From IMG/VR virus record IMGVR_UViG_3300034062_004844, positions 1-25,652 of that record: a stretch of DNA of 25,652 nucleotides; one strand, written 5' to 3'. How positions within the stretch are numbered: the stretch's first letter is position 1; each line of letters begins with the position of its first letter. Positions 4,296 through 25,598 of the stretch are shown in pieces. Below the pieces are notes generated by a model. It was not told the DNA's origin and did no database searches. It was given only the letters and a program-made list of their open reading frames with translations. This DNA comes from a virus. Made by a program: the position numbers and the translations under genes.

Positions 4296-4738
4296 TGGCG
4301 AGCAAGACCGTAAGGCAGCTCCGCGAGGACGTGACCGCGCGGATCCTCACGCTCACCGGGTGGAAAGAGTCACGCGTGGCTCCCGACAACTTTGGGCGGG
4401 ATGCGGACTCCATCGCGCATAAGGCGTTCGCGGTGCACCCCACCTCTACGGATGACCTGCGCGCCTACCGCGGGCGACCTGCCGAGGGCCTCCTCGTCGA
4501 GACTACCCTCGAGGTGCGGTATTCGTGGCGCCTCACGCCGAAGGGCATGAGCGACAGCTATGACGACGCCCTCGATGGCGAGCAGTCCATCGTGAACTGC
4601 CTCATGGCGTACGACACGGCGTGGCCGCAGTCGTACAAGGTGCAGCTCATGACCGCCACGAGGGAGTCCAACGTCATCGGCGAATGGGTCGTCGGTGTGC
4701 TAACGTTCCGCATCGTCCACACGCTTCCGCTTCAGTAG
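4295..4738 (+). CDS. Probable tail terminator / tail completion protein
   Basis: A 147-residue protein. ATG 4295 shares its first base with the preceding TAA, so the longer in-frame start (4247) inside the previous gene is rejected. The layout is an N-terminal helix (TVRQLREDVTARIL), a beta region with TTLEVRYSWRL, a helix SIVNCLMAYDTAW, and a last strand VVGVLTFRIVHTLPL. A short alpha-beta protein ending in a strand of the form L-x-F-x-I-x-H, placed one gene before the tail tube protein, is what is expected of a gpU/gp17-type tail terminator, which caps the tube and meets the connector. Inference from position and secondary structure only. Nine bases separate it from the tube gene. Confidence 0.5.
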   Translation: MASKTVRQLREDVTARILTLTGWKESRVAPDNFGRDADSIAHKAFAVHPTSTDDLRAYRGRPAEGLLVETTLEVRYSWRLTPKGMSDSYDDALDGEQSIVNCLMAYDTAWPQSYKVQLMTATRESNVIGEWVVGVLTFRIVHTLPLQ

Positions 4739-20947: not shown

Positions 20948-21284
20948 ACCGGAGCTGGCGCTCCTCTGGCTCCTGCGCCTCGAGGAGATGCACGTGGAGG
21001 AGCTGGCACGCCGGGAGGGCGTGTCTCAGGCGATGGTCATCGAGACGTGCATGCACTACGGGTGGATTCCTCCGAGGGGGTGGACCGGTCGGCGCCCCGA
21101 CATGCACGAGCGACTCGTGATGTGGAACCACGGAATGAGCTGGGCGCAGGTCGCGGAGGAGTCCAGGTACGGCGGAACGTGGAAGACCTGCGCGACCGAG
21201 GTCCGCGCGTGGGCGAAGCTCAAAGGGTACCCCATCCGGAACTCGAAGCCATTCGGCGACAGGCAGAGGAGGAAGCATGGGTAG
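20934..21284 (+). CDS. Helix-turn-helix-like protein (116 aa)
   Basis: ATG 20934 lies 14 bases inside the previous gene and has GGAGGTG upstream; the longer start (20781) would lie wholly inside it and is rejected. It begins MLIAEPELALLWLLRLEEM, then HVEELARREGVSQAMVIETC, which has the spacing of a helix-turn-helix, and a second candidate at HERLVMWNHGMSWAQVAEE with KTCATEVRAWAK. The repeated pattern and the next gene's similar design suggest a DNA-binding accessory or regulator. The end overlaps the next gene by eight bases. No firm family. Confidence 0.55.
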   Translation: MLIAEPELALLWLLRLEEMHVEELARREGVSQAMVIETCMHYGWIPPRGWTGRRPDMHERLVMWNHGMSWAQVAEESRYGGTWKTCATEVRAWAKLKGYPIRNSKPFGDRQRRKHG

Positions 21285-22532: not shown

Positions 22533-22555
22533 GCGGGGGGCGTCATGCCCCCCGC
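22533..22555 (+). other. Strong G/C hairpin ahead of primase gene
   Basis: GCGGGGGGC (22533-22541) pairs perfectly with GCCCCCCGC (22547-22555) around GTCAT. It sits between the candidate promoter and the primase start, with no T run. It may be an attenuator or leader structure. The ATG inside its second arm (22545) is not expected to be used. Confidence 0.55.
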
Positions 22556-22583
22556 GCCTCCCTCCGGTCGGACAGGTGCAGTG

Positions 22584-24905
22584 ATGACAGGTAGCAGAAT
22601 GGGGCAAGCAGCCCTGGTTTACGCGCGTAAGAAGGGTTGGTCGGTGTTCCCGCTGCGGGAGCGTGACAAGGTCCCTGCGACCGCCAACGGCTTTAAAGAC
22701 GCCACCAACGACGAAGAGAAGATCGGCCAGCTCTGGGGCGACCGAGACTTCAACATCGGCCTAGCCACTGGTGAAGCCTCCGGCGTCTTCGTGTTCGACG
22801 TGGACGGCGACGCCCCGAAGGGTGGGGGACTGACAGGTCCAGAGGCCTTAGCCATCCTTGAGGAGCGGCACGGGGAGCTGACGCCGACACTCTCCGTCCG
22901 CACCGGCAACGGGGCCCACTATTACTACCGGATGCCCGTGGGGCGTGACCTTCGGAACCGTGCGCGCATCACCATCGACGGCCAGCGCACGGGGCTCGAT
23001 GTCCGCGCAGACGGCGGGTACGTCGTCCTGCCTCCGAGCATCCATCCCAACGGGAGGACGTACTCGTGGGACACGGCCTGCCTCAACATCGCTGATGCCC
23101 CCGAGTGGCTTCTAGAGGCGCTCTACCCGAGCCAGCCGGAGGCGCCTCCACGTGCGGCACCGTCTGCCGTTACCGACGAGGACAGGGCCACGGGAGGCGA
23201 TGTGCTCGCGCTGGCGGCAGAGCGCATCCGGGCGTGCACCGATGGGCGACGCCATGAGACCATCTACCGGGAGAGCGCCATCATCGGCGAGCTTGTCGCG
23301 GGTGGGTGTATCGACCGTGGGCATGCGGAGGCCCTCCTCGTGGCGGCCGGGCTAGCCATCGGGAAGCCTGAGGCAGAGGTGCGGCGCACCGTGCGCGATG
23401 GGCTCGACAGGGGCGCCCAGCATCCTCGGAAGTTCTCCGATGCTCCGTCCACCATCCCACCGACGCCGTATCGGCCAAGCGACGTAGGCAACGCCGCGCG
23501 CCTCGTGGACCGCTTCGGTGGCGACGTGCGCTGGTGCGACACTGCACAGGGCGAGGGATGGCTCGTCTGGGATGGGCGGAAGTGGTCGCCCGATACGATG
23601 CGCCGGGTGGATGCGATGGCGCGGCAAGTGGCGGTGGACGTCGTCGTTTATGCCACGGAGCTACAGGAGCGCGCACGTGCGGCCTCCGCGGCGGCAGGGC
23701 AGACCGTCACGCCTGCCCAGCAACGCGCCCTTGTGCAGCTCCGCAGTGAGGCCAAGGCGTGGACCATCTGGGCACGTCAGAGTGAGATGCAGGCGCATCT
23801 AGCCGCGGTCGCGAAGGTTGCGCGTACCGATGTCGCCATCGAGCACGAGGCCCTCGACGCGGACCACTGGATGCTAAACGCTCAGAACGGGATCGTTGAC
23901 CTGCGGCAGGATGTCCTCCTCTCGCATGACCGAGCGGCACGCATGACGAAGATTGCGGGCGTGGACCTCGGTGAGCCCGATGCATGCCCGACGTGGATCG
24001 CGTTTCTGACTCGCATCATGGGCGGCGACCTCGACATGGTGGCGTTCATTCAGCGCGTCGTCGGGTACTGCCTCACCGGCAGCACGCGGGAACAATGCCT
24101 CTTCATCCTCTACGGCAACGGGAGCAACGGGAAGAGCACGTTCCTGGACACCCTCCGCGCAGTGATGGGAGACTACGCCATGCACGCCCGCGCGGAGACG
24201 TTCGTGCGCGACAGTCGCGGAGGCATCCCCAACGACATCGCCGCCCTGCGGGGGGCTCGCCTCGTGACGGCTTCCGAGCCTGAGCAAGGCGAGCAGCTAG
24301 ACGAGGGCCTCGTCAAGGAGATGACCGGCGATGCCGCCATGACGGCGCGTTTCATGCGGTCTGAGTTCTTCACGTTCACGCCCACGTTCAAGGTGCTCCT
24401 GGCGACGAATCATCGCCCCGTCATCCGAGGGACCGACCACGGCATCTGGCGCCGCATCCGGCTTGTGCCGTTCACGCAGACCATCGCCGAACATGAGAAG
24501 GACCGCGACCTCGGGGTAAAGCTCGCCGCAGAGGCGCCGGGCATCCTCGCGTGGGCGGTGCGTGGATGCATCGAGTGGCAGCGCATCGGGCTCGCGCCTC
24601 CGCACGCGGTCCTCGACGCGACGCAGGAGTACCGCGCCGACATGGACATCCTCTCGGAGTTCATCGAGGAGAAGTGCATCCTTCACGCGAGCGTCGGTAA
24701 TACGGCGCTCTACCAAGCGTTCAGCGCATGGGCCGCGGCGAATGGGGAGCGTCCCAGGTCGCACCGCTGGCTCACGCGGGCACTCACCGACAGAGGCTAC
24801 AAGCAGGACCCGAACCGAGCGGCGGGCAGACGTTGGCTCGGTCTGTCTCTGAGGGAGCAGCCGTCGCCCGGCTCAGCACGTGCAGACCGTTCGGCGTGGT
24901 ACTGA
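22584..24905 (+). CDS. Bifunctional primase-polymerase / SF3 helicase
   Basis: A 773-residue replication protein from ATG 22584; ATG 22599 is also possible, whereas ATG 22545 lies within a hairpin. The N-terminal PrimPol domain (about 1-170) has the metal site VFDVDGD (D72, D74) and the nucleotide-binding GNGAHYYYR. The middle is a helical linker (190-420) and a D5_N-type domain. The SF3 helicase has Walker A GNGSNGKST (about 511-519), Walker B-like RLVTASEPE (558-566), motif C FKVLLATNH (602-610) and an arginine region IWRRIRLVP (621-629). A winged-helix-like end follows (HRWLTRALTDRGYKQD). It makes primers and unwinds the origin, so it would start replication without host DnaB or DnaG. It is directly followed by the GGACACT array. 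Confidence 0.92.
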   Translation: MTGSRMGQAALVYARKKGWSVFPLRERDKVPATANGFKDATNDEEKIGQLWGDRDFNIGLATGEASGVFVFDVDGDAPKGGGLTGPEALAILEERHGELTPTLSVRTGNGAHYYYRMPVGRDLRNRARITIDGQRTGLDVRADGGYVVLPPSIHPNGRTYSWDTACLNIADAPEWLLEALYPSQPEAPPRAAPSAVTDEDRATGGDVLALAAERIRACTDGRRHETIYRESAIIGELVAGGCIDRGHAEALLVAAGLAIGKPEAEVRRTVRDGLDRGAQHPRKFSDAPSTIPPTPYRPSDVGNAARLVDRFGGDVRWCDTAQGEGWLVWDGRKWSPDTMRRVDAMARQVAVDVVVYATELQERARAASAAAGQTVTPAQQRALVQLRSEAKAWTIWARQSEMQAHLAAVAKVARTDVAIEHEALDADHWMLNAQNGIVDLRQDVLLSHDRAARMTKIAGVDLGEPDACPTWIAFLTRIMGGDLDMVAFIQRVVGYCLTGSTREQCLFILYGNGSNGKSTFLDTLRAVMGDYAMHARAETFVRDSRGGIPNDIAALRGARLVTASEPEQGEQLDEGLVKEMTGDAAMTARFMRSEFFTFTPTFKVLLATNHRPVIRGTDHGIWRRIRLVPFTQTIAEHEKDRDLGVKLAAEAPGILAWAVRGCIEWQRIGLAPPHAVLDATQEYRADMDILSEFIEEKCILHASVGNTALYQAFSAWAAANGERPRSHRWLTRALTDRGYKQDPNRAAGRRWLGLSLREQPSPGSARADRSAWY

Positions 24906-24906
24906 C

Positions 24907-25129
24907 GGACACTTCGACGGACACTTTCAACCCATCTACGATCAGCACACCATCTATGTGCGGACACTACGGACACTTCTTTTCAACATGATCCACGCGT
25001 AATGAGAAGGGATACACCTAGTCACCCTCACATATAAGCAGAGATGATGCCGTGAAATAGTGTCCGAAGTGTCCGCACGTCGGCAGGCACGGCATCGTAG
25101 GTGGGTACGAAGTGTCTGTAGAAGTGTCC
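24907..25129. repeat. Mirror-symmetric array of eight GGACACT boxes; candidate replication origin
   Basis: Four GGACACT boxes point right, starting at 24907, 24919, 24962 and 24971. Four inverted copies end at 25065, 25074, 25117 and 25129 (one reads AGTGTCT). Spacings are 12, 43, 9 and then 9, 43, 12; all four pairs are centred on 25018. The arms (24907-24977 and 25059-25129) also match in the sequence between boxes, 52 of 71 positions. The 81-base spacer is about 43 per cent G+C, well below the surroundings, and could melt. No gene reads through (24906-25145). Position just after the primase-helicase supports an origin with initiator boxes; a centromere-like or regulator array is possible. 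Confidence 0.7.
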
Positions 25130-25145
25130 GCACTAAGGAGACGAC

Positions 25146-25598
25146 ATGCAGAGAGCACGAACAACGGACGGCGACCTCGTGGCACCAGCACCTGGACAGA
25201 GGGCGACGTGCCCGTACTGCGATGCGACGATGACCGCGAAGTGCGGAGCCATTCTTAGCTGGCATTGGGCGCACATCGGACAGACGTGCATGGAGTGGGA
25301 GCTTCGGTACGGCAGGGGTGAGACGGCATCAAAGGAGAACCTCCCGCCAGCTGGCACCTGCTACACCTGCGATAGGTGGGAGCGTGGCTGCACCTTCGTC
25401 CATGATGCAGACGTCGATGCATGGCAGGAGCAATGGACGAGGCCGACGCCGCAGGGTCTAGTGCGGGTCTACGAAGATGCTCCACCGTGCCCCATGTACC
25501 GCATGGTCAAGCGGCGAACTCCTTACGGTGAGGTACCAGAACCGCAGAGGGTCGGCACAAGGGCCACCATCTTTGGATGGACTAGGAAGCAAGCATGA
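25146..25598 (+). CDS. CoiA-like zinc-binding protein (150 aa)
   Basis: ATG 25146 behind AAGGAGACGAC. The N-terminal part has CPYCDATMTAKCG followed by SWHWAHIG, the C-P-x-C ... [KR]-x-G ... H-[FW]-[AS]-H signature of CoiA-like proteins (competence protein family with a zinc-binding N-terminus and a nuclease-like core). A second cysteine group (CYTCDRWERGC, then CPMYRM) follows. At 150 residues it is about half the length of full CoiA, so the nuclease core may be missing. G+C is lower than upstream genes. It opens a further plus-strand operon whose expression probably starts in or near the box array. Function here is inference: nucleic-acid binding. Confidence 0.55.
   Translation: MQRARTTDGDLVAPAPGQRATCPYCDATMTAKCGAILSWHWAHIGQTCMEWELRYGRGETASKENLPPAGTCYTCDRWERGCTFVHDADVDAWQEQWTRPTPQGLVRVYEDAPPCPMYRMVKRRTPYGEVPEPQRVGTRATIFGWTRKQA

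Follow-up and report, generated by a model that had tools for sequence, protein, structure and literature searches.

Architecture of the array

What is the function of a symmetrical array of short repeats that directly follows a phage primase-helicase gene? The array occupies 223 bases (24907–25129) of an IMG/VR virus contig, analysed here as a single window of 25,652 nucleotides. Four copies of the box GGACACT lie on the + strand: L1 (24907–24913), L2 (24919–24925) and the inner pair, L3 (24962–24968) and L4 (24971–24977), spaced by 9 bp. Four inverted copies lie on the − strand: R4 (25059–25065), R3 (25068–25074), R2 (25111–25117) and R1 (25123–25129). On the + strand these read AGTGTCC, except for R2 (AGTGTCT), which has one mismatch. 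As a preliminary description of this DNA had stated, all four box pairs share a common centre at 25018, with spacings of 12-43-9 and 9-43-12. Seven of the nine exact GGACACT sites in the window fall inside the array. A mirrored arrangement of boxes to this extent is far above chance expectation.

The array is intergenic. Box L1 begins 2 bases past the last base of the primase-helicase stop codon. Two iteron sets surround an AT-rich core of 81 bp (24978–25058), the presumed melting and priming zone. The core has a GC content of 43%, compared to 62–68% in the flanks and 65–67% for the genomes, and is thus AT-richer than its surroundings, as described previously. Each side of the core carries four boxes, inverted with respect to the other side, rather than the one-sided direct repeats of a classical iteron plasmid origin. 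A second motif, CTACGAT, is also mirrored. It is found at 24936–24942 on the + strand of the left arm and at 25094–25100 on the − strand of the right arm (ATCGTAG on +), and takes the form CTA[CG]GAT in relatives. The motif is a possible site for a second protein.

Similarity between the arms extends beyond the boxes. The inverted segments 24906–24942 and 25094–25130 are 84% identical; identity is 78% for 24958–24993 and 25043–25078. The preliminary description gave a match of 52 of 71 positions between boxes. In fact, this figure covers the whole arm, including boxes, and about 25 of 43 positions match outside them. Seven of these approximately 25 belong to CTACGAT. The remaining spacer positions match at 50%, against 28% (sd 7%) by shuffling. 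The arms are imperfect compared with a near-perfect stem-loop of the pRN1 type, yet the predicted fold is strong (z = −9.4 for the array strand folded as DNA). An Rfam search of the window gave no match. A switch in GC skew had been anticipated near 25018, but none clearly accompanied the array, either in the window itself or in two relatives analysed after rotation.

The layout is maintained in close relatives

The window belongs to a small tailed phage that encodes a tape measure protein, an endolysin, RusA, Erf and a PolB-type exonuclease. Six records represent close relatives and five contain the complete array; the L012 record stops within it. All five retain eight boxes, as well as CTA[CG]GAT in both arms, and have mirror scores 8.5–19 sd above shuffles. 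Spacings in L001, L002 and L003 are 12-43-9 and 9-43-12, exactly as in the window; L013 departs from this by a single base, confined to one of its arms. In L011 the spacings are 12-53-20 and 20-54-12. Hence, both arms are lengthened, with each changed gap growing by 10–11 bp, approximately one helical turn. The sequences inserted at the inner pair of L011 are inverted copies of each other. The ORF downstream of the array varies among relatives; the array is constant. In the window, this position is taken by a small ORF (25146–25598) that weakly resembles CoiA_N, scoring under the curated cut-off, and other ORFs replace it in relatives.

Records G003 and G006 each begin and end with 11 bases that are identical or almost identical (CCCGTTAGGCT or CCCGTATGGTT). 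This suggests complete genomes of 28–29 kb with 11-nt cohesive ends. If so, a few hundred bases would separate the array from the right end. This 11-base end sequence, identical or nearly so, occurs at the contig ends of L003 and L013, at 7768–7778 of L001 and at about 3491–3501 of L002, and is preceded by a conserved cos-proximal block. A terminase is encoded by relative G002. Near upstream of that gene, outside the window, is a PAPS reductase-family gene (PF01507; L089, 3921–4805). We found no close prophage; the best bacterial match was 39%, in an Acidobacteria MAG.

The primase-helicase C-terminus is exchanged together with the array

The gene preceding the array (22545–24905, + strand) encodes our proposed initiator. 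Pfam domains PF09250, PF08706 and PF19263 were identified and the PHROG match was DNA primase (2e-160). Together with an AlphaFold model, these assignments describe a PrimPol domain, D5_N, an SF3 helicase and a C-terminal winged helix. The proposed initiator is a primase fused to an SF3 helicase, as at origins of the PICI and P4 kind. A profile search with the helicase matched PDB 7ola (E 2e-20), which we take to be SaPI5 PriRep1; D5/E5 were also among the matches. The AlphaFold model has a mean pLDDT of 87, and a fold search with it matched solved PrimPol-SF3 proteins over the model length. A winged-helix DNA-binding domain is predicted at the C-terminal end, with helices and strands at about residues 687–765, including helices 719–732 and 740–749.

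Comparison of close relatives connects this domain to the boxes. L001 and L003 are 92–97% identical over most of the primase gene. Through the C-terminus and array, identity drops stepwise to 84, 73, 63 and 60%. It is 39–45% in the next ORF and returns to 97% near cos. The pattern is reversed when L001 is compared with L002. Box type switches along with the swap of the C-terminus and array: the window, L001 and L002 have CGGACAC, while L003, L012 and L013 have TAGGACAC or TGGGACAC. The swapped segment also includes the next small ORF. These identity patterns indicate that the C-terminus and the array form one cassette, exchanged between phages.

Across 50 dereplicated loci, box similarity covaries with C-terminal identity when helicase identity is accounted for (partial rho 0.16, permutation p = 0.003). 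The reverse comparison, box similarity against helicase identity given C-terminal identity, was not significant for the same loci (p = 0.18). The covariation is weak but specific, with phylogeny only partly controlled. Taking the structural model, the co-swap and the covariation together, the C-terminal domain (residues 698–775, encoded by 24636–24869 on the + strand) is the probable reader of the boxes.

A different gene, at 21277, was originally put forward as an initiator candidate. It is absent from the records of all six relatives, several of them incomplete, and five of these have eight boxes. Hence, a conserved initiator is unlikely to be encoded at 21277. We dropped this candidate; the primase-helicase is the better one.

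Mirrored arrays are widespread 3′ of related genes

The preliminary description suggested looking for the same box layout downstream of PrimPol/SF3 genes in related phages. Linkage of such arrays to the PrimPol/SF3 gene is seen in both near and distant relatives. Regions 3′ of the gene were screened with a detector that requires a tandem pair of boxes on one side and its inverted mirror image on the other. Such 2+2 arrays were detected directly 3′ of PrimPol/D5-type primase-helicase genes at 112 of 176 loci, representing 34 of 55 clusters. Controls gave few matches: the detector fired in 5 of 175 stretches within the gene, in 8 of 168 taken from the 400 bases beyond the tested region, in none of 153 farther downstream and, after shuffling, in 1 of 176. 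Clusters were defined by single-linkage on downstream DNA and one of them contains 112 loci. Hence, per-locus counts overstate independence, and 34 of 55 is the safer figure. A fully mirrored array, first thought to be unusual, is so in comparison with classical iteron plasmids but is common in the PrimPol/SF3 replicon class. In the open literature that we searched, no description of the wider pattern was found for phages.

Box spacing in the detected arrays peaks at 9 and 10 bp and the median core is 63 bp. Among 50 dereplicated arrays, the left-arm unit has GAC reading toward the core in 37, and repeated GTC in none. Hence, box polarity looks fixed. Distant relatives, with 30–45% identity, have mirrored arrays just 3′ of the gene but with unrelated box sequences; these include phi105, O1205, A2, AcaML1 and LP-101. 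One locus, L153 (40% identical), has GGACACT boxes, an inner spacing of 9 and a 44-base gap to the outer tier. The box pair also locates such genes by itself. A DNA-only scan with two boxes at 9 bp produced 41 matches outside near relatives. Six lie just 3′ of a D5-type primase gene, compared to none of 83 for two control patterns (p = 0.001).

The 2+2 signal was absent at the other 64 of 176 loci, for instance in phiC31 and Streptomyces phages with a DNA polymerase gene directly after. The detector also found no mirrored box pair in BPP-1, the near-identical sister of BIP-1, for which a stem-loop has been described (PMC4234260).

GGACACT arrays at 9 bp also occur at the 3′ ends of other genes (L117, L129, L150, L151, L141 and L143). 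The preceding genes encode an AAA_25 helicase in L117, Toprim and AAA_25 in L150, and a DnaG-zinc-finger and DUF3987 primase in L151. Unrelated helicase families seemingly share this layout, and even the box sequence itself. A chance match of a scrambled control pattern revealed a two-tier mirrored array in L287 (436–760; TGCCGAGACT at 9 bp) with a CG run in its core. An alternating CG run (e.g. CGCGCGCGCG), or a similar GC-rich alternating stretch, is present in the cores of L023, L033, L057, L086, L099, L153 and L287.

A replication origin is the favoured interpretation

We consider it highly probable that the array serves as the phage's replication origin, with the adjacent PrimPol/D5-type primase-helicase binding it through its winged-helix C-terminus. 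The array layout stays in five relatives while downstream ORFs differ. The cassette swap, and the covariation of boxes with the C-terminus, argue for the same interpretation. So does the abundance of 2+2 arrays 3′ of such genes relative to controls, and the ability of the box pair alone to find these genes. In addition, an array of this type lies in the annotated rep_origin of Lactobacillus phage A2. The C-termini of SaPI Rep and Cch2, and the rep-ori unit of E. coli PICIs, offer precedents (PMC7581432, PMC6092414). Counted against an origin are the lack of a GC-skew reversal, the 64 loci without a 2+2 signal, the weakness of the covariation and the co-swapping of the next small ORF.

The mechanism would be as follows. 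Briefly, the C-terminal winged helix would bind the boxes in tandem pairs. With box orientation opposite on the two sides of the AT-rich core, two helicase rings would be placed facing each other across it. The facing rings may then melt the core and load on the two strands, allowing the PrimPol domain to prime bidirectional synthesis from the core. The outer box pairs and CTACGAT may contribute as well. The preliminary description had noted that the symmetry and core would suit an origin loading two helicases. This view is supported, as is the linkage to the PrimPol/SF3 gene, seen in near and distant relatives.

Other functions can be considered for such a structure. The arms could form a cruciform or hairpin recognised by shape, as proposed for pRN1, with the boxes merely part of the stem. 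The strong predicted fold is consistent with this, as is the rescue of a pRN1 stem mutation by restored symmetry (PMC4234260). Furthermore, spacer similarity between the two arms of L003 (0.58) exceeds that between these arms and their counterparts in L001 (0.34–0.37). However, tandem repetition at 9–12 bp is kept within each arm, which a stem does not need, and spacers pair at only about 50–58% while boxes are 86–96% symmetric. The gaps in L011 also grow in helical-turn steps. The periodicity within arms and the low spacer pairing favour box recognition, and we regard recognition by shape as unlikely. A regulatory role, as an operator cluster or a terminator acting on the primase or on the gene that follows the array, is very unlikely. 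The intergenic position would permit this and box binding could autoregulate as well, but the array is constant next to differing downstream ORFs. Neither the exact symmetry about an 81-bp AT-rich core nor the recurrence of this architecture in dozens of phages whose boxes differ in sequence fits such a role.

Proximity to the right end of a linear genome, with cohesive ends probably a few hundred bases away in complete relatives, raises the prospect of a cosB-like packaging site. Yet the array stays by the primase, a variable ORF separates it from the conserved cos-proximal block, and many unrelated phages and prophages have arrays of the same kind next to their primase genes. We judge a packaging function to be highly improbable. 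Still less credible is an attachment site (attP). A core flanked by integrase arm sites looks superficially similar, but no integrase or resolvase (tyrosine or serine recombinase) was found in seven records, some of them incomplete. Hence, attP is improbable in the extreme, and for known recombinase families it is ruled out in these records.

We conclude that the array is a real, conserved element and most probably an origin, one that belongs to a known kind but takes a new, unusually exact form. This pinpoints a probable origin and initiator for an uncultivated phage group. It also provides a rule for finding origins in many phages, namely mirrored 9–10 bp boxes just 3′ of a D5/PrimPol primase-helicase gene. 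Natural swaps of the C-terminus and boxes expose the recognition code to direct test.

Comparison with known replicons

The closest parallels are PICIs and SaPIs, in which a primase-helicase gene is followed by its own origin, with two iteron sets flanking an AT-rich region. The C-terminus of SaPI Rep recognises iterons directly downstream of its own gene, apparently as two hexamers, and the isolated C-terminus of Cch2 binds Cch2 repeats (PMC7581432). Origins of E. coli PICIs always have two iteron sets around an AT-rich region, and the rep gene plus ori replicates (PMC6092414). Unlike these elements, the window element is a tailed phage, with no integrase found, its own tape measure and endolysin, and a terminase in relative G002. 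It therefore lacks the integrase and dependence on helper-phage structural proteins that define a PICI satellite. The window array also differs in having eight boxes in two mirrored tiers, fixed spacing and the CTACGAT motif. In 2018 the PICI origin organisation was said to occur in no other known bacterial replicon (PMC6092414). Mirrored arrays are common in phages, which contradicts that claim and bears on the ancestry of the PICI replicon.

In P4, crr lies 3′ of the alpha gene. Its annotation lists type 1 repeats at 4314 and 4323, 9 bp apart, and inverted copies of them at 4366 and 4384. P4 differs from the window in carrying a pair of 120-bp repeats and, at a distance, a second origin. The P4 primase is of the Toprim type (PMC4234260). 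The record of Lactobacillus phage A2 annotates a rep_origin whose start coincides with the 3′ end of the D5 primase gene. This origin contains ACGGGAGG-type boxes, at spacings of 12 (outer) and 8 (inner), in three pairs on one centre. The box sequence is unrelated to that of the window and the symmetry is less exact.

The archaeal plasmid pRN1 depends on a stem-loop of 100 bp, which follows the PrimPol-SF3 gene on its 3′ side; the authors who described the plasmid report no iterons (PMC4234260). As in the window, a symmetric element lies 3′ of the gene, here ORF904 (PrimPol-SF3-winged helix), and in pRN1 it is required. We find that the stem arms, TTATGTCCATAGTGTCCAACT and AGTTGGACACTATGGACATAA, can be interpreted as a 2+2 arrangement of GGACA boxes, spaced by 9 bp, with a core of 58 nt and 22% GC between the arms. 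The pRN1 stem-loop thus gains a testable re-reading as a box array. Box polarity is opposite to that of the window, the stem is perfect and there is a single tier. The likeness in box sequence may be coincidental.

A joint design for phages, PICIs, P4 and the archaeal plasmid is an attractive idea that we advance tentatively, the balance being slightly against it. The gene immediately upstream would encode a PrimPol/SF3 protein, and the C-terminal winged helix of this protein would read tandem boxes spaced by 9–10 bp, of fixed polarity and mirrored about a core of 50–85 bp. The C-terminus and array would be an exchangeable specificity cassette. Changes in arm spacing would come in full helical turns and affect both arms together; the pRN1 'stem-loop' would be one such array.
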